Origin: a virus
IMG/VR virus record: IMGVR_UViG_3300022200_001639
Location: 1 to 22,187 of that record
Strand: one strand, 5' to 3'
Length of the DNA stretch: 22,187 bases
The position numbers and the translations under genes are program-made. Below, piece by piece: positions 1,097 to 22,106 of the stretch; position 1 is the first letter of the stretch; every line of letters begins with the position of its first letter. The notes below the pieces were generated by a model. It ran no database searches. It was not told the DNA's origin and was given only the letters and a program-made list of their open reading frames with translations.

Positions 1097-3157
1097 ATGT
1101 CAAACTACACAAAAACAACCAACTTTGGTGCTAAAGACACCCTTCCTTCAGGTGACTCTCAGAAGATCGTAAGGGGCTCTGAGTTTGATACTGAATTTAA
1201 TGCTATCTCAACTGCTATTGCTACTAAGCTTGAGTCTGGCGCAAGTTCTGCTGATGTAAATTTCTTGCAAAGCGGAACTGGTGCTACTACCAGGACGGTG
1301 CAGGCGAAGTTGAGGGATGTTGTTAGCGTTAAAGACTTTGGGGCGGTGGGGGACGGAGTCGCAGATGACACTGCGGCGATTCAGGCGGCTGTTAATTCTT
1401 GTCCGGCTGGTGGTGGTGTTTATATCCCAGAAGGGCGATACAAAATCTCGGATGCAATCCTATTGCCAAGGCCGATAACAATTTTCGGCGCAGGAATGGG
1501 GAACGTATACGCCGACTACACGGCTTCTTCATATGACAACTTTTCGGCAATTCAACAAACAAACGCCGCAAAGCCCGCATTTAAGATGGTCGCATCTCAG
1601 GAAAACTATGCGTTCAATGCATATGGCATTCTGAATGTCCACTTTCAAAATTTAATGATCTCTGGCCCCAGTAACTCATCTTACGCGCTTGCCGGTGTTT
1701 GTGCTGATACGACTGTGAACGGAGGAGACTTCCATATTCGACATTGCCACATGAACAATGTGGCTATCCGATACTTCACAACTGGTGTTGATTATACGGG
1801 CATTGCTTACCTAAACACTTTTAGTAACGCTCTAGTCTACAACTGCACGACTGGGTGGAAGGTTGCGCGCGGATTATCTGGAGATAACGGCGGACAAACC
1901 CGCTGGTTTGGGTGCACTGGAATTGCTTGCGGCACTGTTGCATCTCTCAACGAAAACGGATCTGCAGGATCATTTGCTTTTTTTGGCTGCACTCTTAGCG
2001 AAAGCCAGTACGGGATTCGGGCAGATGAAGAATGCGTTATAACAGTCTCTGGGTGCGAGTTTGAGTCTCTGACTAACTCTGGCAACGGCGCCGGTATATA
2101 TATCAACATTGCGGAAGCGAACCCAAACTCTAGCGCAGCAAAAACAATTGTCGGAAACAAGTTTTTAAGTAATGACGCGGACATTTGGATAGACAAGACA
2201 ACTAGCGCATTTTCTGGCGGCGGTTTTGCTTGGCCGATGCTAATTGATAGCAATACGCTTGTATCTTCGACTGCATTAAAAATTACCGTTCCAGCCGGGC
2301 ACGTGGGCATTGATAGCAAATTGTTTGTGTTTGGCGCGGCGAACGCTGGCCCTAATGGTCCTGTTTCATCTGGGCAAATTAGCGCAAATTTCTTGGGATA
2401 CGACGCAAGAACCTGGGCGGCCAAGTCTGCGCCAAGCGGCGTAGTTGTTGGGACATCAGATACACAAACACTTTCGGGAAAAACATTTAATCAAAACTCC
2501 CTGCAGTTGATCGGGACCGCATTTCAAAATGTTACCTATTCAATCAGCAGCGCAGCCGGAACTACTGGAAATTTTGCTAGACTGCAGTTTTATGACAACA
2601 ACGGATCTGGCGATATTGGGTCGCTGACGGGTTACGGCAGCGCATACGGCGGGATTTTTAACAATAATCTGGTCTTGGCTACTCAAGGCAGCAACCGAGT
2701 TTTTATCACAAGCTCATCAACACAGCCTGCGACAGATAATACTTATGCCTTAGGTGGTGCAGGAAACAGATGGTCTGTAGTTTATGCGGGGACCGGCACG
2801 ATCAACACCTCCGACGAACGCGAAAAGCAGGATATCTCTGCGCTTGATGAAGCAGAAAGGCGCGTAGCTATTGCGATTAAAGGACTTGTAAAAAAGTTTC
2901 GATTTAAAGACGCAGTGCAGAAAAAGGGCGACGGCGCTCGGATTCATGTCGGAGTGATTGTGCAGGAAGTTATGGCTGCGTTTCAGGCCGAGGGTTTGGA
3001 CCCGATGCGATATGGAATCATTTGCTATGACCAGTGGCAAGAAAGTCCGGAAGTTTTGGCCGACGACGGCGCAGTGATCAGCCCGCTTGTTCCGGCTGGC
3101 GACCGCTATGGCGTGCGCTACGAAGAGCTTTTGGCGTTCGTCATTTCGGCTTTGTGA
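1097..3157 (+). CDS. Tailspike with pectate-lyase-like beta-helix and C-terminal S74 chaperone domain
   Basis: This 686-residue protein has three visible parts. Residues 1-70 (MSNYTKTTNFGAKDTLPSGD onward) resemble the particle-anchoring N-terminus shared by many phage tail fibres. Residues ~76-120 contain KDFGAVGDGVADDTAAIQAA, the hallmark start of the pectate lyase 3 / right-handed beta-helix family, and a Gly/Asn-rich helix body follows. The C-terminus from Ser572 has the TSDEREK signature of peptidase S74 intramolecular chaperones, with Ser572 and Lys577 as the presumed dyad. By analogy with endosialidases, cleavage just before Ser572 would release a ~115-residue trimerisation chaperone. 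An AAGG-type ribosome site lies before the ATG. The role is host-surface polysaccharide recognition or degradation; the substrate is unknown. Base and codon use appears to change after roughly 1330-1450, suggesting that the receptor-binding part was exchanged. Confidence 0.85.
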   Translation: MSNYTKTTNFGAKDTLPSGDSQKIVRGSEFDTEFNAISTAIATKLESGASSADVNFLQSGTGATTRTVQAKLRDVVSVKDFGAVGDGVADDTAAIQAAVNSCPAGGGVYIPEGRYKISDAILLPRPITIFGAGMGNVYADYTASSYDNFSAIQQTNAAKPAFKMVASQENYAFNAYGILNVHFQNLMISGPSNSSYALAGVCADTTVNGGDFHIRHCHMNNVAIRYFTTGVDYTGIAYLNTFSNALVYNCTTGWKVARGLSGDNGGQTRWFGCTGIACGTVASLNENGSAGSFAFFGCTLSESQYGIRADEECVITVSGCEFESLTNSGNGAGIYINIAEANPNSSAAKTIVGNKFLSNDADIWIDKTTSAFSGGGFAWPMLIDSNTLVSSTALKITVPAGHVGIDSKLFVFGAANAGPNGPVSSGQISANFLGYDARTWAAKSAPSGVVVGTSDTQTLSGKTFNQNSLQLIGTAFQNVTYSISSAAGTTGNFARLQFYDNNGSGDIGSLTGYGSAYGGIFNNNLVLATQGSNRVFITSSSTQPATDNTYALGGAGNRWSVVYAGTGTINTSDEREKQDISALDEAERRVAIAIKGLVKKFRFKDAVQKKGDGARIHVGVIVQEVMAAFQAEGLDPMRYGIICYDQWQESPEVLADDGAVISPLVPAGDRYGVRYEELLAFVISAL

Positions 3158-3165
3158 GGTAACCC

Positions 3166-3360
3166 ATGCCCACCCTAAAACAACTCCTTCGCTCCCGCAC
3201 AGTGCTCTTTGCAGTCGCTATTGCAATCCTTAGCGTCCTCCAAGGCTTTATCTTTATGCTTCCAATAGGCCCCCATTGGCAAGCTTTGGTGGGGTGTTTG
3301 ATAGCAGTTTCAGTTGTTCTTCTTAGGGCTGTTACTAATCAACCTTTGTCTAATAAGTAA
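3166..3360 (+). CDS. Small two-helix membrane protein, candidate holin
   Basis: A 64-residue protein with a short basic N-terminus (KQLLRSR), two hydrophobic segments at about residues 13-31 and 38-55, and a polar end. Size and topology fit class II phage holins, which make lesions in the inner membrane at the end of infection. The adjacent 134-residue gene is a better match to a named holin family, so this one could equally be an antiholin or accessory lysis protein. The GAGGT ribosome site overlaps the TGA of the spike gene, and the stop is followed directly by the ATG of the next gene, so translation is probably coupled. No residue-level motif proves the function. Confidence 0.5.
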   Translation: MPTLKQLLRSRTVLFAVAIAILSVLQGFIFMLPIGPHWQALVGCLIAVSVVLLRAVTNQPLSNK

Positions 3361-3765
3361 ATGAACCTGTTAAACCTGATTCAAGGCATCTTTCAGCCAG
3401 CAGCAGAACTTATTGACCAAGTACACACAAGTCAAGAAGAAAAGCTACAACACAAAGAGCGTCTTTTGCTTACTCAGGCTACAGTCATTGATCAGGTTCT
3501 TAAATACGAAAAGGATTCATTTGAAGCAAGGGCAAAGATTATCGAGGCAGAAGCTAAGTCTGAACACTGGCTAACTGCAGTATGGAGGCCTATCACAATG
3601 CTGACATTCTTGGCACTGTGTGTTGGTGATAGCCTGGGGCTTCTTAGCACCCCTCTTAGGGATGAGGCGTGGACTTTGCTTCAACTAGGTCTTGGTGGTT
3701 ATGTGGTAGGCAGAAGTGCTGAAAAGATCACTAAATCGGTGTTAGGTCAATCAAAAGATGGTTAA
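3361..3765 (+). CDS. Holin of the GTA/3TM holin type
   Basis: A 134-residue protein. Residues ~1-70 are charged and helical, probably coiled coil (HTSQEEKLQHKERLLL). WRPITMLTFLALCVG at ~75-90 begins the first hydrophobic segment. The end (GLGGYVVGRSAEKITKSVLG) matches the conserved C-terminus of the GTA-type three-transmembrane holins of phages and gene transfer agents. The expected role is membrane permeabilisation timed to release an endolysin, although no endolysin gene lies within the window. It starts immediately after the stop of the small membrane protein gene and its 3' end overlaps the next gene by 8 bases, so the lysis pair and following virion gene look co-transcribed. The family is well recognised; the role is inferred from it. 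Confidence 0.7.
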   Translation: MNLLNLIQGIFQPAAELIDQVHTSQEEKLQHKERLLLTQATVIDQVLKYEKDSFEARAKIIEAEAKSEHWLTAVWRPITMLTFLALCVGDSLGLLSTPLRDEAWTLLQLGLGGYVVGRSAEKITKSVLGQSKDG

Positions 3766-5680
3766 TACTACTACTGGAATGTTCACTGTAGGGCCCCTAG
3801 AAGCCTCTATGGGCGTTTCTAATAGCATAGCAGTACCTACCCAAAGGGTAGCGCCTCCTGTGGCCCCTATAGCGCCCCCAATGCTGGGCAACACTGACTA
3901 CACCATTAGACAGACTCCAGCATCAGCCCTAAGCATGCTTGGTGGTTTGCCTGTATCAGTCCCCGCTGAAGTTGCTGCTTATCTTTCAAGTCAACCACAG
4001 ATTGTTTCACCTTTTGAAGGTATGCCTTCATTGGTAGGTGCTCAAGATATCTTTGGTGGCAGGTCTTATGTAACTCATAGTACAGCAGGCCCTGAAAAGC
4101 GCCGTGTTGGGCTTATGGAGATGAAGCAGCTTGCTCAGACTCCAGGATTTGATACTACAGTACGTCCTGAATTCTTAGGTGAAACTTATCTCCCCTTTAG
4201 GCCAGAAGGTACCGATCCTAATGTTGTAAACGATACTAAGCTTTGGCACCAGTATTACACTGACAATAAAGACTATCGCAAATATCTCTCTGCAGATGAA
4301 CAGACTGAGCTTGCTTGGCTTGATTATAGGACTGGTCTTACTGACAAGAATCAGTTTACTTCAGCAGTTAACCAAGTAAGAGAAAACTTTAATCTTCCTC
4401 AGAAAGTAGCTTTTGAAGACTTTGAAGCACACTTCTCGATTGGCACCAAGAGGAAGAAGTATTCAGACAACCCGTATCAGGATCTTCAAGACTACGGCCC
4501 TTCAATTGGTGGCTATTGGAACCCTGAGAATGACCCTAGTGAAACACAACAGGTGTTGTCTAACCCCTTTGTTCAGGGTGTTATTACATCTCTTGCTAGC
4601 TACTTTGGTGGTCCTGTAGGGGCTGCTCTTGCCTCTACAGCAACCACTAGGGCTACTGGCGCTGATTGGACTGATGCTCTTCAAGCAGGGGCAATGGCCG
4701 GTGCTGGGTCATTTGTAGATACATATGCTCCCGGTTTGTTTGGTAATCTTAATCCGCAAGTAAGCAGTGCTTTGATCAAAGGGGCTCGTGCTTTTGCCCA
4801 AGGTGGTGACATCAAGGACGTTTTGGTGTCTGCTGGCCTTGGGTATGCCGGTGGCCCTGGTGGAATGCTTAGCAAAACATTAGGTGATCTTGGTCTTAAT
4901 GTTGGTGAAGGTGTTATTTCCAAGGCTGTAGAGGGCCTTAGCTTGGCAGATGTTGCCAAGTTTGGTTATAAGTCTACAGAAGACTTTGGATCAGCTCTTG
5001 GTAGTCTGATCGAAAACATGGATCTTGGCACCCTAGAGCAAACAGGGCTTCTTAGTGTTCTTCCTCAAGGGATTCAAGATGCTGTTAGAAAAGTAGAAGT
5101 ATCTGATCTTCTTGCTTCAGGTGTTGGTGGGATTGATTCAGGTCTTGCTTTTAACATCTTGAATGACATCAACATGCCTTATGATCTAAAAGTTGGTATG
5201 TTGACTGGTAATGTTGAAATACCACAATGGATGAAAGATGCTTATGAAGCTGTTGAAGGGGTTGTACAGCCTGTAGCACAACAAGTTGAAAGAGTTGCAA
5301 GTAAAGGGTATGAAGCTGTAGAACAAGCTATTCAAGACGCCACTAGTGCGGTTCTACCAGCAAAACCAGAGTCTATGTTTAACATTCCAAATATAGATCT
5401 TTTTGCTTCTACCCAACCAATTCCTGAATTTAATATTCCTAATATTAATATTCCTAGTGTTAATGTTCCTAATGTTAATGTTCCTGATGTTAATCTACCT
5501 AATGTAAATCTACCTAATGTTGCTATGCCTAGTGTTAATCTAACTGGCGATCAAAAAAGCATGTTTGAAGATTATAAACCTTATCAGTTTAGTGGTATTA
5601 GGTTTGATCCAAGAGCCCCTGTGATTCCTGTGATTCAGCCAAGGGGACAAGATCCTCTCTCAATTCTTCTTAGAGGCTAA
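3758..5680 (+). CDS. Presumed virion protein with pentapeptide NVxxP-type repeats, function unknown
   Basis: A 640-residue protein not assigned to a named family. The N-terminus is Pro/Val rich (PPVAPIAPPM). Residues ~268-320 are Gly/Ala rich and weakly hydrophobic (ASYFGGPVGAALAS, QAGAMAGAGSF), a pattern seen in phage internal and ejection proteins that insert into or cross membranes. Residues 558-595 hold seven five-residue repeats of the type V-N-(V/L/I)-P-(N/D/S). No lysozyme, transglycosylase or protease motif was recognised. The ATG at 3758 overlaps the holin stop by 8 bases; an in-frame ATG at 3779 is an alternative. Position between the holin and the tail adaptor, in the same dense operon, argues for a late structural protein. 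A large tail or ejected protein is the most likely role, which is inference only. Confidence 0.55.
   Translation: MVNTTTGMFTVGPLEASMGVSNSIAVPTQRVAPPVAPIAPPMLGNTDYTIRQTPASALSMLGGLPVSVPAEVAAYLSSQPQIVSPFEGMPSLVGAQDIFGGRSYVTHSTAGPEKRRVGLMEMKQLAQTPGFDTTVRPEFLGETYLPFRPEGTDPNVVNDTKLWHQYYTDNKDYRKYLSADEQTELAWLDYRTGLTDKNQFTSAVNQVRENFNLPQKVAFEDFEAHFSIGTKRKKYSDNPYQDLQDYGPSIGGYWNPENDPSETQQVLSNPFVQGVITSLASYFGGPVGAALASTATTRATGADWTDALQAGAMAGAGSFVDTYAPGLFGNLNPQVSSALIKGARAFAQGGDIKDVLVSAGLGYAGGPGGMLSKTLGDLGLNVGEGVISKAVEGLSLADVAKFGYKSTEDFGSALGSLIENMDLGTLEQTGLLSVLPQGIQDAVRKVEVSDLLASGVGGIDSGLAFNILNDINMPYDLKVGMLTGNVEIPQWMKDAYEAVEGVVQPVAQQVERVASKGYEAVEQAIQDATSAVLPAKPESMFNIPNIDLFASTQPIPEFNIPNINIPSVNVPNVNVPDVNLPNVNLPNVAMPSVNLTGDQKSMFEDYKPYQFSGIRFDPRAPVIPVIQPRGQDPLSILLRG
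5429..5542 (+). repeat. 15-base tandem repeats encoding pentapeptides
   Basis: 114 bases within the 640-residue protein gene made of seven 15-base units plus nine bases. A typical unit is AATGTTAATGTTCCT. They encode V-N-(V/L/I)-P-(N/D/S) pentapeptides at residues 558-595. Units are imperfect, so the array is older or under less recent slippage than the 18-base array on the right. Confidence 0.8.
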
Positions 5681-14825: not shown

Positions 14826-15066
14826 TATATTTGAATACCTCCTCAATAAGTTTATCGAGATACCACCTAGCTTTTTTAAGGTCTTCTAGGCCATTTTTGT
14901 ATTTGTATCTGTGGAGGTATTTTAACACAGAACCTTCGTAATATGAAGACGCCGTGCTTCCTAATTGCTGCTTGATATAATCAATAGCTTCAATTGATCC
15001 TTGGTTATAATGTTTTGGTTTAGAAACTGCATCCCACTCTGAAGGGGTGGCTTTGTCAATGCTCAT
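14818..15066 (-). CDS. DUF3310 family protein (domain also found in T7 gp1.7)
   Basis: An 82-residue protein carrying the full DUF3310 pattern: SKPKHYNQGSIEAIDYI, then YYEGSVLKYLHRYKYKNG and LEDLKKARWYLDKLI. The domain is common in phages and occurs in T7 gp1.7, a nucleotide kinase, so a link to nucleotide metabolism is likely, but this short version has no obvious kinase part. The ATG at 15066 with AAGGA upstream is preferred over a TTG at 15102; it overlaps the stop of the GIY-YIG gene as ATGA. The gene is in the same run as the MazG-like enzyme. Confidence 0.85.
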   Translation of the reverse strand: MSIDKATPSEWDAVSKPKHYNQGSIEAIDYIKQQLGSTASSYYEGSVLKYLHRYKYKNGLEDLKKARWYLDKLIEEVFKYNG

Positions 15067-15908
15067 ATGGTGTCCTTCTTGTGTTTTTGTATTATGTTCC
15101 AAACCGCTGTTTGAGATATTTTTATTTCTTTTGCTGTTTTATTCATACTTTTTGTTTTTTCATAACTTTTAATAACAGCAGCTTCTAATTCTTCCCTAGA
15201 AGAAAAACCTGTTATTGCTAAAATGTGTTTACTGTTAGCAAGAGACAGTTTTTCTTTCCTGGCTTCTGAAAGAGGTTTTCCAAATTGTGGGTGTTTTTCA
15301 CCCCTATTAGCAAGAGACATCTTTTCTTTCGTTGATTCTGAATGAGGTTTTCCAAATTGTGGGTGTTTTTCACCCCTCCTAGCAAGAGATATCTTTTCTC
15401 TAGTTTCTTTAGTGAGGGTTTTACCTCTATTTAAAAGAGACAACTTTTCTCTAGCAGAGTCACTATGATGATCAGGCGGTCTGAACTTAATAGCAGCTAT
15501 ACTTTTGTTGTAGTATAGATACACATCTTCTGTAAGCTTCTCTGCCAAGACGTTTCTTACAGCCTGTTCTTTTATTTCTTCATAGTGAAGATCACCTTTG
15601 GTAGAGTGTTGGCTTAGAATAATAAATCTAAACTTATCTTTACCAAACTTCTTGATGTCTGCATTAAGCTCTCTGCTAGACCCTGTATAGTAGTTCCAGT
15701 CGCTAGGCTTCCATTGCTCAGGTCGCCACTTATCAGTTGATATATGGCTTGATCTGTTCCTAAAGTTGCCTGTAGCTGCCCAGTATTGCTTCTTGCCTAC
15801 ATACAGCCTGCCGTTTATGGTGTTTTCTATAAGATAGATAAAACCAAAAAAACAGTCGGGGTTAGGCTCAAGACCTCCCCAGTGGTGGTGATTACTCAAT
15901 TTGCTCAT
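15063..15908 (-). CDS. GIY-YIG homing endonuclease with NUMOD3 repeats
   Basis: A 281-residue free-standing homing endonuclease candidate. The GIY-YIG core is residues 22-38 (GFIYLIENT ... LYVGKK), followed by WNYYTGSSRELNADIKKFG (71-89), a pattern of the phage Seg-like subfamily; Glu110/111 is a possible metal ligand. Residues ~150-225 contain NUMOD3 DNA-binding repeats, including RGEKHPQFGKP twice exactly 24 residues apart. The C-terminal ~40 residues look helix-turn-helix-like (MNKTAKEIKISQTAVWNI). It cuts related phage DNA and spreads itself by repair. It sits between replication genes, overlaps the exonuclease gene by 17 bases, and looks more AT-rich than its neighbours, consistent with late insertion. 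The ATG at 15908 is chosen; one at 15935 would overlap more. Confidence 0.85.
   Translation of the reverse strand: MSKLSNHHHWGGLEPNPDCFFGFIYLIENTINGRLYVGKKQYWAATGNFRNRSSHISTDKWRPEQWKPSDWNYYTGSSRELNADIKKFGKDKFRFIILSQHSTKGDLHYEEIKEQAVRNVLAEKLTEDVYLYYNKSIAAIKFRPPDHHSDSAREKLSLLNRGKTLTKETREKISLARRGEKHPQFGKPHSESTKEKMSLANRGEKHPQFGKPLSEARKEKLSLANSKHILAITGFSSREELEAAVIKSYEKTKSMNKTAKEIKISQTAVWNIIQKHKKDTI
15234..15415 (-). repeat. 72-base tandem repeat inside the homing endonuclease gene
   Basis: Two 72-base units start at 15272 and 15344. Their first ~56 bases differ at only three positions. A partial, more diverged copy precedes them (15234-15271). Each unit encodes one 24-residue NUMOD3 repeat (RGEKHPQFGKP core), so copy-number change keeps the frame. 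Confidence 0.8.
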
Positions 15909-16761
15909 TAGGAATCTCAGGCACATTAGGCTCATTAACTACTTTAACCAGAAACCTGGGGCCATTTGAGTACACAAATCCTCTAACTTCCGGCCAGCAG
16001 ACTTTCTTAAAGTGACAATAAGAGCACCCAGTGTCCAGTTTCAGGTTGCCTGACTTACCATCAGGAACAGGATCATGGCAGTGCTTGGGTGGTTCTGGTT
16101 GCTTGACAACTTGGTTAATGTGCTTAACACGATCTTCAATCGAGTAAGAGATATCCTTGTGGATTGGAGCTTGTGTGTCTTGCTCATCATAAAGCAGATA
16201 GGTCAGGTGCCCATTCTGCTTGTCCATAGCCAGCCAGCCATACTTGGTTTCACCCTCTGAGTGTGCATATGCTTTGATCTGAGCCACATAACCAAAGTCA
16301 TCATCCCAAGCTAGGGTGCCTTCTTTGAACTTCTTAAACCCGTAGGTGCTGGTGGATTTAACGTCAGTCACCACCCCATCAATCTTGCAGTCCATGCTGC
16401 CATTGATGTCCCCTACAGTGCATGGGTGCTGCTCATGGGTGACTTGATGCCCTGACATCTTGGTCAGAAACAGCAGCATCTCCTCGATCAGGTGTCCATA
16501 CATAAATTTAATAAGATTCTCAGGACGATACTTCTGTTTAGCCTTAGAGTGATAGTGGTTCCACAGGTAGCGATCATCACGCCCAATGTTAGAAAGCCTG
16601 AGCTTACGTGCATCAAAGCTTTTATTTAGGAACTCCTTACGCATCAGATCCTTGACTGCTTCTCCAAAAGCATCAATCTCTTTTTCTACATCAACCCCAG
16701 GCGGTGCCCTTTTTGTCAGGACCAGGGTGTAAATATCTTGTACCAGTTTAAAGATTTTCAT
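15892..16761 (-). CDS. RecB/Cas4-like PD-(D/E)XK exonuclease with cysteine cluster
   Basis: A 289-residue nuclease. Visible motifs in order are G89-HLIE93 (helix with acidic ligand), D128 in KIDGVV, D133-V-K135 in TDVKSTS (the D-x-K core) and Q161-x3-Y165, the RecB-family Q-x3-Y motif. Cysteines at 228, 246, 249 and 255 (GCSYCHFKKVCWP) lie after the core, as in Cas4/AddB-type enzymes that hold an iron-sulfur cluster, though a zinc site is possible. It probably acts as the phage exonuclease for host DNA breakdown, recombination or primer removal, replacing T7 gp6, which belongs to a different fold. The start is 3 bases after the upstream stop; the homing endonuclease gene overlaps its end. Confidence 0.85.
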   Translation of the reverse strand: MKIFKLVQDIYTLVLTKRAPPGVDVEKEIDAFGEAVKDLMRKEFLNKSFDARKLRLSNIGRDDRYLWNHYHSKAKQKYRPENLIKFMYGHLIEEMLLFLTKMSGHQVTHEQHPCTVGDINGSMDCKIDGVVTDVKSTSTYGFKKFKEGTLAWDDDFGYVAQIKAYAHSEGETKYGWLAMDKQNGHLTYLLYDEQDTQAPIHKDISYSIEDRVKHINQVVKQPEPPKHCHDPVPDGKSGNLKLDTGCSYCHFKKVCWPEVRGFVYSNGPRFLVKVVNEPNVPEIPNEQIE

Positions 16762-18743: not shown

Positions 18744-20354
18744 TTAAAACGGAATCACCTCTTGGTCTTCTTCTTGGGGCTCAACTTCGACAAGTCTACC
18801 TGTATCCCGCTCATAATACAGCTCACATGCTTTACCAGTCAGTCCTGCAAAGCGATTTTTTAGCACCCTCAATTTGGTGGTGTTTGCTTCTCTGAAGTCT
18901 TCTGCCTGCTGGTTGCGCTCTAGTCCTATCACACAATCAGACAGTTGTGCAATAGCAGCAGATCCCCTTAGCTCACTTAGAGACACCTGAGCACCTTCCT
19001 CGTGCCCCTTGCTACCCTGGGGCCTACGAAGGTGTGATACTAGGAACATGCCAATGTTTAGTTCTTGTACCAGTGTTCTAAGCTTGGTCATGATTGCATC
19101 AATGGCTTTTCTCTCATCACCAATACCTTCCTGAGAAGACACCATGATGCTGATGTGGTCTAGGATGACCCACTTGCAGTCATATGCTTTACACATGTAC
19201 CGAATGCGGCTATAGACACTTTCATCATCAGCAGACCCAAAGTGCTTCCAAAAGTAGAACCGTGACTGGTCAATTTGTTTGAGCCAATAAATTCTGTCTT
19301 CCTTGGTGATCCCTGAGTTGGGCAAATGTAGTGGTTTGTTTGCCAGCAAAGAGGCAATACCAAGCCCTGACCGCTTTGGAACTTCTTCCATGGCGATCAC
19401 TGCGATGTTGTCAGTGGTTTTTTGATAGAGGTAGAACTCTAATTCTCTGAGCAGTTGGGACTTACCCATACCTGCACCAGATGTGATCGTTACGAGCTCT
19501 GCTGGTCTGAAGCCGTAGGTCAGATCGTTAAGACCTTCCCATGGGTAAGGAACAGAATTATCTTCTTGTTCTTCCTCTACTTCTTTGATGATGTCTTCAA
19601 AGGTGACAATGCCGTCTGGCTTATGGAGCCTAGAGTCCCACCAGGCGGTCATAAAGTCTGTAATGCAGCCTTCCCGCAGATAGTCACAGGCGTCTTTGAA
19701 CTCTGCGGCCATCCGCATGATTCTGAGCTTGTGAGGGGAAAAAAGATCCTTTACTGAGTCAATGGCTGCCTTGCCAGCAGCATCATTATCAAAACACAAC
19801 ACAACATTATCATACCCTTCAAGCCACTCTAGCTGCTCTTGAATGTCTTTACGGGCACCGGACGATCCTGTCCGAATAGACACGACATCCCATTTGTTGC
19901 CAAACATCTCTGACACGGCCAAGGCATCAAGTTCACCTTCTGTGATTGTGATGTACTTGCCTGACCCTCTACAGATGTTTTGACCAAATAAACCTACTCC
20001 TTGTGTTATACCTGAACAGGTAAACTTTTTATTAGCTACATATCTCGTCTTGACCAGTAAGAGGTCACCGCTGAGAGCGTGAAAATAAGGATAATGGTGC
20101 TTGTTAATATTTCCACTAGCGTCATATTCTATGGTTACTCCGTATTTTTTACAGGTAGCTTCCGTTATTCTTCGGTCCTTGATTGAACCGACCACACCGG
20201 ACATTTCCATAGTTATATTATCCATACTTTGGGTGAATTTATCGTAATAATTACAACCAGGTGTAAAACAAAAAGACCCCCCATCATCATAAATAGCAAG
20301 ATTATCTTTAGAACCACATTTGGGACAATTTGTGTGCTTTAAGAATTTTGCCAT
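18744..20354 (-). CDS. T7 gp4-like bifunctional primase-helicase
   Basis: A 536-residue protein that makes primers and unwinds DNA at the fork. Domains in order: an N-terminal zinc ribbon (Cys10, 13, 29, 34), a TOPRIM primase core with Glu139 (TITEGELDA) and D189-N-D191 (CFDNDAAGKAA), a linker, and a RecA-like DnaB-type helicase with Walker A GAGMGKS (293-299), Walker B ILDH (Asp399) and His441. The length is close to T7 gp4 (566). The end is acidic and finishes in Phe (EEDQEVIPF), as in T7 gp4, where that residue docks onto the polymerase. The ATG at 20354 overlaps the upstream small gene by 16 bases and the stop is one base before the polymerase ATG. Confidence 0.95.
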   Translation of the reverse strand: MAKFLKHTNCPKCGSKDNLAIYDDGGSFCFTPGCNYYDKFTQSMDNITMEMSGVVGSIKDRRITEATCKKYGVTIEYDASGNINKHHYPYFHALSGDLLLVKTRYVANKKFTCSGITQGVGLFGQNICRGSGKYITITEGELDALAVSEMFGNKWDVVSIRTGSSGARKDIQEQLEWLEGYDNVVLCFDNDAAGKAAIDSVKDLFSPHKLRIMRMAAEFKDACDYLREGCITDFMTAWWDSRLHKPDGIVTFEDIIKEVEEEQEDNSVPYPWEGLNDLTYGFRPAELVTITSGAGMGKSQLLRELEFYLYQKTTDNIAVIAMEEVPKRSGLGIASLLANKPLHLPNSGITKEDRIYWLKQIDQSRFYFWKHFGSADDESVYSRIRYMCKAYDCKWVILDHISIMVSSQEGIGDERKAIDAIMTKLRTLVQELNIGMFLVSHLRRPQGSKGHEEGAQVSLSELRGSAAIAQLSDCVIGLERNQQAEDFREANTTKLRVLKNRFAGLTGKACELYYERDTGRLVEVEPQEEDQEVIPF

Positions 20355-20534: not shown

Positions 20535-20612
20535 TTATTTATAAAGTTGTTCTAACTTTTCCCAAAGCTTTTTAAATTTAAATTCGTAATCAACGTATGA
20601 GTAGTATTTCAT
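20535..20612 (-). CDS. 25-residue micro-protein candidate
   Basis: ATG at 20612 shares an ATGA overlap with the stop of the 122-residue gene upstream, and its TAA ends four bases before the next ATG, so it fills an otherwise empty gap exactly. The peptide starts MKYYSYVDYEFKFKKLWEKL and is Tyr/Lys/Phe rich, probably an amphipathic helix. No family is recognised. Coupling geometry identical to that of the neighbouring real genes is the main support; the sequence could still be non-coding. Confidence 0.45.
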   Translation of the reverse strand: MKYYSYVDYEFKFKKLWEKLEQLYK

Positions 20613-20977
20613 TTAAACCACTCATCTACATAGGAAGGTCTAAGATCGAACTTCTTGCAAAAAGACTCCAGCAGTCTGTAGTCATGATCATCATCACATA
20701 TAGCATTATGAATGGCAAGATAACCTGCTAGTTGCGCAGGAGCATACGCTTCTGGACCCCAGCCAAACACGCTATAAAGAACATGGCGATAAGATCCTTT
20801 ATCTACTAGCTCACCTTGATTAATACGTCGAGACACTGCACAAAAAGCAGCCAGCTGCTGCTCTTTTGTTAGCGAGTTCCAATATTCTTCATGTTGCTGT
20901 TCAATTTCATTCATGGCGTTATTGAACAATTCGGAGAATTCGTCCCATGCTTTTAAAGTTTGTTCATCGTTGGTCAT
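20609..20977 (-). CDS. Conserved phage protein of unknown function (122 residues)
   Basis: The chosen ATG at 20977 has a strong GGAGGAGG ribosome site seven bases upstream and an ATGA overlap with the previous stop; a longer frame to 21034 lacks such support. The protein is acidic and helical, with WDEFSELFNNAMNEIEQQHE near the start, then SLTKEQQLAAFCAVSRRI, and an aromatic stretch VLYSVFGWGPEAYAPAQLAG. This layout matches a small uncharacterised protein found in many phages of diverse hosts. No catalytic motif or known function. It sits among accessory early genes upstream of the replisome genes. Confidence 0.7.
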   Translation of the reverse strand: MTNDEQTLKAWDEFSELFNNAMNEIEQQHEEYWNSLTKEQQLAAFCAVSRRINQGELVDKGSYRHVLYSVFGWGPEAYAPAQLAGYLAIHNAICDDDHDYRLLESFCKKFDLRPSYVDEWFK

Positions 20978-21621
20978 ACACAACCCTCCTCCCTCACTTT
21001 GCTTAGTCTTTCCAGCGCATCCAGGATTACGCAAGTTTCCTCGTGTTTTGGGTGTTCAGTTCCCCAATGCTCCCTCGCTTCAGGCATCGTAAAGTATCTG
21101 CATCCTGCAATGACTCTATGCTCCCTGTCGGCGCAGGACACATAGCAAAAGGAAAAGCCATCGCTTCTCATGACTCCGTAGACCCGCGCGTTTCCAAAGA
21201 CCCACGCGTTTCCGCAGACCCGCGCGTTTTCGCAGACCTGCGCGTTTTCGTAGACTTGCGCCTCTCCGCAGACCCGCGCGTTTTCGTAGATCCACGCGTT
21301 TCCAAAGACCCGCGCGTTTTCGTAGACCTGCGCGTTTCCGCAGACCCACGCGTTTTCGTAGACCCGCGCGTTTTCGTAGACTTGCGCCTCTCCGTAGACC
21401 CGCGCGTTTTCGTAGACTTGCGCCTCTCCGTAGACCCGCGCGTCTCCAGAGACCCGCGCGTCTCCAGAAACCTCCGCATTTCCAGAGACCCAGCAATTGC
21501 CCTCATGGCTGAGATTCGTTTCTGATTCAACGAACCCGCCAACATCTCCAGCCTTTACGAAGCCAAAGTTGCGTCGAGCAACGACTCGACCGTCTGCATT
21601 AATCTCGTATTTTTTGGTCAT
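20974..21621 (-). CDS. Hexapeptide-repeat beta-helix protein (YdcK-like)
   Basis: A 215-residue protein in three parts. Residues 1-42 (INADGRVVARRNF, VKAGDVGGFVESE) resemble the N-terminus of E. coli YdcK and related phage proteins. Residues 43-150 are exactly 18 hexapeptides of the type A-(R/Q/W)-V-(Y/C/S/F)-(G/E)-(N/D/E), which should form a left-handed parallel beta-helix or similar solenoid. Residues ~151-215 form a capping domain (VIAGCRYFTMPEAREHWG) also known from phage proteins. The function is unknown; such solenoids serve as acyltransferase scaffolds or as binding surfaces, but no catalytic His was identified. The ATG at 21621 with GGAGG five bases upstream is preferred over a TTG at 21633. 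The end overlaps the next gene as ATGA. Confidence 0.8.
   Translation of the reverse strand: MTKKYEINADGRVVARRNFGFVKAGDVGGFVESETNLSHEGNCWVSGNAEVSGDARVSGDARVYGEAQVYENARVYGEAQVYENARVYENAWVCGNAQVYENARVFGNAWIYENARVCGEAQVYENAQVCENARVCGNAWVFGNARVYGVMRSDGFSFCYVSCADREHRVIAGCRYFTMPEAREHWGTEHPKHEETCVILDALERLSKVREEGCV
21172..21495 (-). repeat. 18-base minisatellite, 18 units
   Basis: 324 bases made of 18 tandem 18-base units without spacers, each encoding one hexapeptide of the beta-helix protein. Read on the plus strand, a typical unit is GACCCGCGCGTTTTCGTA; units differ at a few positions and several carry ACGCGT. Because the unit is a multiple of three, units can be gained or lost by slippage without breaking the frame. 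Confidence 0.9.
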
Positions 21622-21646
21622 ACATGCCTCCAAGTTATTGTTGTGG

Positions 21647-21916
21647 TCATGCCTCTAACCATCGTATTTCTGGATTGGTTTTATAATATTCCGTGAGTAT
21701 CTGATCTAAGTTCCACTGCGTTTCTGTGCGGAAATAATTTAGCCATTCACTGAGTCTATTCCAGTCTTCTGAATGCATAGTCCAAAGTCCAATTTCATCC
21801 GGGTATGGTTCATCGCCACCATAGACATCTATACGACCTGCTGCCCAATGATTACCATTCTTTTGAATCCAATCAGAATTTATTGGACCCATCCAGTTTG
21901 TGCTGTATCTAAACAT
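21647..21916 (-). CDS. Conserved phage protein of unknown function (MFRYSTNWMGP family)
   Basis: An 89-residue protein beginning MFRYSTNWMGPINSDWI and ending NPEIRWLEA, with GRIDVYGG and SEDWNRLSEWL in between. This arrangement is familiar from a widespread uncharacterised phage protein family; the present copy is shorter in the region between the N-terminal motif and AAGRID than the copies I remember. It is aromatic-rich (many Trp), cytosolic, and has no catalytic motif. The ATG at 21916 overlaps the helix-turn-helix gene by 8 bases, with TGGATGGAAG just upstream; an in-frame ATG at 21934 is less likely. Its stop overlaps a ten-codon mini-frame upstream of the beta-helix gene. Confidence 0.7.
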   Translation of the reverse strand: MFRYSTNWMGPINSDWIQKNGNHWAAGRIDVYGGDEPYPDEIGLWTMHSEDWNRLSEWLNYFRTETQWNLDQILTEYYKTNPEIRWLEA

Positions 21917-22106
21917 GCTTCCATCCAGTACCATTCAAAATTACTTCTATCGCTCTTTTTGACACATAAAACTTCCTAGCAATAACCCTTTGAGACAAAC
22001 CTTCCTTGGATAGTGCCCTGATCAGGTGCACATCATCCTCGGTAAGCTTTGCCCTTGGATGCTTTACTCCACGCCTGGTGGCGTATAGGTCGAGACTAGT
22101 GGTCAT
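21909..22106 (-). CDS. Small helix-turn-helix DNA-binding protein
   Basis: A 65-residue protein. KLTEDDVHLIRALSKEG (20-36) followed by LSQRVIARKFYVSKRAIEVI (37-56) forms a typical resolvase/Hin-like helix-turn-helix, ending in NGTGWKHV. The same module is often found as the C-terminal domain of phage HNH endonucleases and as a stand-alone protein. This copy has no nuclease part, so it may be a small regulator or a remnant of a mobile endonuclease. GAGGGG lies seven bases before the ATG. The start overlaps the end of the truncated upstream gene by 11 bases. Targets are unknown. Confidence 0.7.
   Translation of the reverse strand: MTTSLDLYATRRGVKHPRAKLTEDDVHLIRALSKEGLSQRVIARKFYVSKRAIEVILNGTGWKHV

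Follow-up and report, generated by a model that had tools for sequence, protein, structure and literature searches.

The stretch of viral DNA analysed here, called the window, comprises 22,187 nucleotides (IMG/VR record IMGVR_UViG_3300022200_001639). Near one end it carries, on the minus strand, a gene in which a tandem array of short coding units lies between an N-terminal cap and a C-terminal domain (Table 1). An alternative in-frame start, a TTG at 21633 upstream of the ATG, is possible. The solenoid gene belongs to a minus-strand cluster with the order small HTH protein, 95-residue protein, solenoid gene, 123-codon gene, small ORF, primase/helicase and DNA polymerase. As the primase/helicase lies in the same cluster, the gene is placed in the replication (early) region, outside the tail module. 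The tail-spike genes of the window are found on the opposite strand and at the opposite end, so the solenoid gene is not placed like that of a receptor-binding protein. Its place suggests an early, non-virion protein.

Table 1. Features of the solenoid gene and its neighbours in the window.
Feature	Position	Strand	Remarks
Solenoid gene	20974..21621	-	215 codons plus stop; ATG at 21621; PF18836 E 9.6e-24; phrog_7964 E 1.2e-55
Likely ribosome binding site GGAGG	21627..21631	-	5 bases ahead of the ATG; read from the sequence
N-terminal cap domain, 42 codons	21496..21621	-	family motif GDxGGxxExxxNLSHEGNCW; columns conserved in 20 aligned relatives
Array, eighteen 18-bp units	21172..21495	-	each unit one hexapeptide A-X1-V-X2-[G/E]-[N/D/E]
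Seventh unit	21370..21387	-	identical to the fourteenth; borders the seven-unit deletion of contig L003 (unit strings)
Fourteenth unit	21244..21261	-	other end of the seven-unit deletion (unit strings, window vs L003)
C-terminal domain, 65 codons	20977..21171	-	exchanged together with the array between phages
Next gene, 123 codons including stop	20609..20980	-	ATGA overlap with the solenoid gene's stop; no assigned function
Primase/helicase	18744..20354	-	same gene cluster as the solenoid gene; Pfam and PHROG matches

Three other features of the window were observed. A 65-residue HTH protein (21909-22106) has its match in the C-terminal part of HNH endonuclease families of phages (phrog_6156) and is perhaps a homing endonuclease leftover. 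A GIY-YIG homing-type endonuclease (15063-15935) contains a duplicated 72-bp NUMOD3 segment and overlaps the preceding nuclease-like gene. A second coding tandem repeat, 15 bp x 8 with PxVNx-type pentapeptides, lies at 5420-5539 near the end of a 640-residue virion-region ORF.

The array of the solenoid gene is 324 bases long and consists of 18 in-frame units of 18 bases without slip, just as the original prediction had described it. It lies within a single ORF on the minus strand, which the prediction had not named. One 18-bp unit is one six-residue side of the solenoid. Tandem Repeats Finder placed the array (period 18, score 323) at the top of 17 rows for the window, and its identity at lag 18 is 0.77, whereas 2,000 mononucleotide shuffles average 0.27 and reach 0.36 at most. 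Fifteen of the 18 units are distinct, the first (CWVSGN) and the last (ARVYGV) being edge forms. Position X1 is occupied by R (8), Q (5), W (4, the first unit included) and E (1), position X2 by Y (9), C (4), S (3) and F (2). The G+C content is 62% in the array vs 44% in the window. The open frame across the array on the plus strand is a by-product of the repeat.

The high mutual likeness of the units, also claimed originally, goes back to copying at the DNA level, as seen from codon use. On average the units are 75-80% alike at lags 1-9, and a gradient is absent. Alanine is encoded by GCG in 17 of 17 cases, valine by GTC in 16 of 17 and arginine by CGG in 8 of 8, vs 9%, 14% and 4%, respectively, in 18 other phage genes tabulated. 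The binomial probabilities of this choice (2e-18, 3e-13 and 7e-12, from rounded frequencies) assume independent codons, the very assumption that copying breaks. For glutamate, GAA is used at unit position 5 (7/7) and GAG at unit position 6 (3/3). Skewed codon use together with this dependence on position indicates that the array grew via DNA duplication and that its units have not drifted to the codons of the phage. We also weighed a mechanism acting through four TNY codons (F/S/Y/C) at X2 and did not adopt it; the four residues do hold across the family (79%), but 24% of X2 codons are non-TNY, and structure may explain the choice equally. A role of the array as DNA (iterons, CRISPR) was rejected; relatives keep the protein pattern with other DNA.

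By sequence, the phage solenoid protein is a member of the YdcK beta-solenoid family, a known family common in phages and Bartonella. PF18836 (YdcK beta-solenoid repeat) matches with 81.7 bits (cut-off 30), four of five stretches in the gene passing the cut-off, and PHROGs 7964 and 5070, both annotated as function unknown, match at E 1e-55. YdcK (PDB 2f9c/2pig) is the sole solved relative found by phmmer (E 1.3e-15, residues 11-128) and the closest solved relative by sequence of a 20-sequence profile (E 4e-36). The phmmer alignment begins in the cap (residues 11-45), so a YdcK-type N-cap precedes the repeats. No Pfam family matched the C-terminal 65 residues. The idea that the array encodes a beta-helix thus gains support at the level of the repeat. 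Structure prediction, proposed as a check, did not confirm fold and handedness. The AlphaFold models reached a mean pLDDT of 64.2 with 20 sequences and 56.8 with a single sequence; both low-confidence models place a short strand every six residues along the array, and both are too weak to fix the handedness of the solenoid. The YdcK-type fold is a triangular, left-handed beta-solenoid. Foldseek with both models returned nothing at E 0.001 or less, the best match being YdcK (E 0.069, rmsd 11.2). The best VIA-align rows for these weak models were left-handed-type acetyltransferase folds at an rmsd of about 12 and a bactofilin at 2.2 A; YdcK was absent among the best 50 matches listed.

Two further identities were weighed against this family assignment. 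Profile matches to LpxA- and LpxD-type enzymes (E 5e-8 to 1e-6) and phage-record names such as 'putative transferase' would fit an acyltransferase of the LpxA/hexapeptide superfamily. In LpxA-like hexapeptide acyltransferases the catalytic histidine usually lies within the solenoid; none was found in the 18 array units, the conserved histidine of the N-cap is glutamine in Vibrio relatives, and Hexapep (PF00132) scores 20.2 bits, below its cut-off of 27, all of which makes an acyltransferase improbable. The GenBank label 'polymer-forming cytoskeletal protein' implies instead a bactofilin-like, filament-forming protein. Bactofilin (PF04519) matches weakly (20.4 bits, E 6e-4, cut-off 27.9), and the low-confidence single-sequence model superposes on the bactofilin BacA with Z 9.7 and 2.2 A over 103 residues. 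However, the score is under the Pfam cut-off, YdcK is the closer solved relative by sequence, and folded caps at both ends would probably hamper end-to-end stacking; we consider a filament former to be similarly improbable.

Comparison with related phages shows that the array gains, loses and exchanges units at a far higher rate than the DNA around it changes, even though this is not always fast, as several pairs with identical arrays indicate. Contig L003, by its flanks the same phage as the window, differs from it by 1 mismatch in 3,887 flanking bases (1/692 before the array, 0/3,195 after). Its array of 11 units equals the window string minus positions 8-14, cut between two identical units. 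Three records of one prophage (L307, L308 and L309), probably isolate genomes to judge from their contig names, have 30, 18 and 15 units with 0 mismatches in 1,000 bases before and 200 after the array; for L307/L308 (the same as L137/L132) the flanks are free of mismatches over 1,650 and 1,659 bases. L235 and L249 have 27 vs 20 units (flank mismatches 1/228 and 3/1,503), L117 and L144 15 vs 24 units (flanks 96.0 and 99.2% identical) and L013 and L015 25 vs 26 units. The genes of the Edwardsiella phages KF-1 and ZHX are a single 18-bp unit apart, ZHX holding one irregular unit. Outside the Vibrio group, all array differences in the compared pairs are multiples of 18 and the frame is kept. Changes in whole turns (54 bp) were rejected as a rule, since steps of 1 and 7 units were seen. 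Across 363 array frames, some loci being counted twice, unit numbers span 7 to 69.

A survey of 71 pairs, each flank being at least 95% identical, gave 55 identical arrays, many of them the same contig twice or two records of one strain, 6 arrays of equal length and different content, and 10 of different length. Among these 10, one repeats the window/L003 pair (L193 = L003), three are from Vibrio and two more are spurious (L184/L214 is a single contig read in two frames), which leaves window/L003, L117/L144, L132/L137 and L235/L249, differing by 7, 9, 12 and 7 units. Complete E. coli genomes were considered as a long-read test set and rejected. The gene of plasmid pSTEC648_2 had no full match there, 91 of 5,426 genomes matching beside the gene, over 13-20% of the query in the 60 rows listed, and the L137 region had none either. 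The claim that the solenoid changes length between individuals without losing its frame holds for relatives with identical or nearly identical flanks; for individuals of this phage it is represented by one short-read pair, window/L003. Comparing repeat counts among related phages had a similarly divided outcome, with varying numbers in several pairs and constant length in three Streptococcus phages and in many identical arrays.

In these Streptococcus phages (Sfi18, Sfi19 and CHPC919) it is the content that changes. All three have 18 units, and 12 unit types occur among them. Pairwise, 10, 14 and 13 of 324 array sites differ vs 6, 6 and 4 of 2,901 sites outside, i.e. 3.1-4.3% vs 0.1-0.2% (Fisher P 4e-7, 2e-10 and 1e-10). 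Changed codons are 7, 11 and 11 nonsynonymous vs 1, 1 and 0 synonymous (29/31 over the three pairs). Units 4-6 of Sfi19 match its own units 15-17 exactly, as if a block had been copied. In L143/L146 one unit is swapped between identical flanks. Xanthomonas phages CP1 and MK21 are a counter-example, with 94.9% identity in the gene, 95.3% in 400 bases upstream, no indel and no whole-gene excess.

Array and C-terminal domain also move between phages. From 21831 to 21532 the window and L004 agree at 100%; identity drops to 74-82% across array and C-domain, recovers to 99-100% beyond the stop (20967 to 20368) and is about 85% thereafter. Over the 125 bases available, the C-domain of L004 in turn shows 100% identity with its counterpart in L007, in a different context (43.8% upstream). 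L002 has the last ten units and the C-domain (99.5%) in common with the window, with an N-domain at 74.6% and both flanks unrelated. These patterns indicate that array and C-domain move as a block, with crossovers in or beside the array.

If short reads fail to span such an array, the length differences could be assembly artefacts around arrays that are stable in reality. The Vibrio phages give substance to this explanation. Table 1 of PMC6029569 gives 1.034.X as a technical replicate of 1.034.O, yet the arrays differ by 15 bp and out of register, while the 5,994 flanking bases show 0 mismatches; genome-wide, the two are distinguished by the array and by about two further sites. Sub-lineages 1.139.A and 1.139.B, which PMC6029569 describes as purified from one plaque, differ in the array by 201 bp, which 18 does not divide, and the array of B contains stops. 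According to the same paper, these genomes were built from reads of 100-150 bases. Moreover, stops or a frameshift interrupt the arrays of Vibrio records L039 and L041, L008 is identical to the window over 3,351 bases and ends within the array, and in L319 and L320 the match breaks off after 56-58 query residues. The replicate indicates that short-read arrays can be wrong, possibly including the 18 units of the window, a number that is certain for the sequence and less certain as the true number in nature. The explanation fails to account for non-Vibrio pairs that differ by exact multiples of 18 and in frame, or for L004 and L005, which show the same 20 units in two data sets. It is also at odds with the window/L003 junction at two identical units. 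Both contigs come from short-read metagenomes; their junction units share about 29 identical bases (counted by eye in the unit strings), a length that long word sizes would resolve, for which reason we judge the seven-unit deletion to be more probably real than not. Sfi18 and Sfi19 diverge in the array at constant length, and their records (1999) presumably date from the Sanger era, so that short-read collapse cannot explain this divergence. Altogether, assembly artefacts are an unlikely explanation of the variation as a whole.

The variation may also be real and neutral, the rod accepting whatever number of units it has and the repeat growing and shrinking as coding minisatellites do. The wide span of unit counts fits this reading, as do steps of one or seven units that ignore the three-side turn. 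When the units of an array are compared with each other, pN/pS amounts to 1.02 for the window and 1.6-1.8 for the Streptococcus trio, and 16 of 115 arrays with at least 10 units exceed 1; as values above 1 are rare, our claim is one of fast change at outward positions, without proven positive selection. Against neutrality, 2,445 units from 141 distinct arrays keep A in 83% and V or I in 96%, X2 is restricted to four residues (Y/F/S/C in 79%), and the codon changes of the Streptococcus trio are nearly all nonsynonymous. We therefore regard purely neutral change as somewhat unlikely. Both caps are under purifying selection, in line with the original statement that the flanking domains are intact: dN is 0.06-0.21 vs dS 0.2-1.1 for the N-terminal cap in all pairs that differ, with 0.186 vs 1.080 for window/L002, and 0.127 vs 1.137 for the C-domain of window/L004.

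The reading we favour, at a probability of roughly 0.55, is a non-virion phage rod of the YdcK family whose surface is rewritten by recombination of units and which binds a variable partner inside the cell. Two conserved caps would hold a rod of 18 hexapeptide sides, three sides per turn. Recombination or slippage between near-identical DNA units would delete, add or replace units in steps of 18 bp with the frame intact. In hexapeptide solenoids, the X1 and X2 positions generally face outward. With core A, V and G/N fixed, the presumably outward X1 (R/Q/W/E/K) and X2 (Y/F/S/C) would vary, and the surface of the rod could be rewritten quickly. The protein may then serve as an intracellular binding protein, its partner varying from host to host or from one competing element to another. 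The data support a fast-evolving solenoid, and the rewriting of units is well supported by the relatives; binding is putative, and the adaptive value of unit change is a conjecture. If unit shuffling is adaptive, such arrays point to a binder that evolves fast, its probable targets being hosts or rival elements, with a simple, testable repeat code. More tentatively, and with less than even odds, the whole family may be a natural combinatorial repeat library, in which unit recombination and exchange of array and C-domain rewrite X1 and X2 faster than the rest of the genome, some phages carrying several tandem copies with alike caps and different arrays. Recombination would in this way give an intracellular binder new targets, with no need of a reverse transcriptase or an invertase.

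The family is widespread. A search of IMG/VR with the window protein gave 35 loci, and a search with alignment A2 gave at least 577 stretches, of which 79 loci were kept. Family matches comprise 76 phage records, 25 plasmid records and 51 loci in bacterial genomes, mostly Bartonella. Tandem copies occur on Streptococcus salivarius plasmid pIKMIN-B502 (five). Six tandem solenoid genes with near-identical starts and ends and differing arrays of 9 to 27 units were seen at L235:26-2883, and the Bartonella tribocorum plasmids L103 and L102 have tandem paralogues, different in gene number within otherwise alike surroundings of repC.

Family members bear the labels 'polymer-forming cytoskeletal protein', 'putative transferase', 'glycerol kinase' and 'CRISPR spacer'; many differently labelled phage genes thus belong to one YdcK-type family. 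In phage records Javan174, Javan318, Javan249, Javan68 and Javan420, family members overlap 'glycerol kinase' features, a label that is apparently wrong. In the Vibrio breoganii phages L037, L038, L039, L040 and L041 (about 3100-3470), GenBank annotates coding units as CRISPR spacers. We rejected a CRISPR array there, the 'spacers' of 1.034.O being units of an intact 260-codon reading frame. PMC6029569 reports 32 viruses with 'putative CRISPR features', and at least some of these consequently carry the solenoid gene family. That short-read genomes misreport such arrays matters to anyone comparing them. Our literature search found no study of array variation in phage YdcK-like proteins, and this mode of change seems little described in the literature searched.

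Among known systems, YdcK, a chromosomal protein of E. coli and Salmonella, shares the N-cap and the solenoid repeat with the window protein; our literature search found no tested function for it. YdcK is longer (a 334-residue chain) and its units have diverged, whereas the window protein has DNA-identical units and a different C-terminal domain. Bactofilins are likewise beta-solenoids with short repeats, their profile match to the window protein being weak and sub-cut-off. The variable repeat of NeuO is reportedly short, separate from the solenoid and a switch or modulator of enzyme activity. NeuO, the polysialate O-acetyltransferase of prophage CUS-3, is prophage-encoded and reportedly combines a hexapeptide solenoid with a variable-number repeat (PMC3046976), as found here. 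However, NeuO is an enzyme, and in the window protein the variable repeat is the solenoid itself. The phage proteins of PHROGs 7964 and 5070, including gp229 of Sfi18/Sfi19, have the same architecture with 18 units, encoded just before helicase/primase genes; in Sfi18 and Sfi19, too, the relative of the solenoid gene lies shortly ahead of a helicase gene. In the three Streptococcus isolates compared, the 18 units are kept and the units themselves are shuffled.
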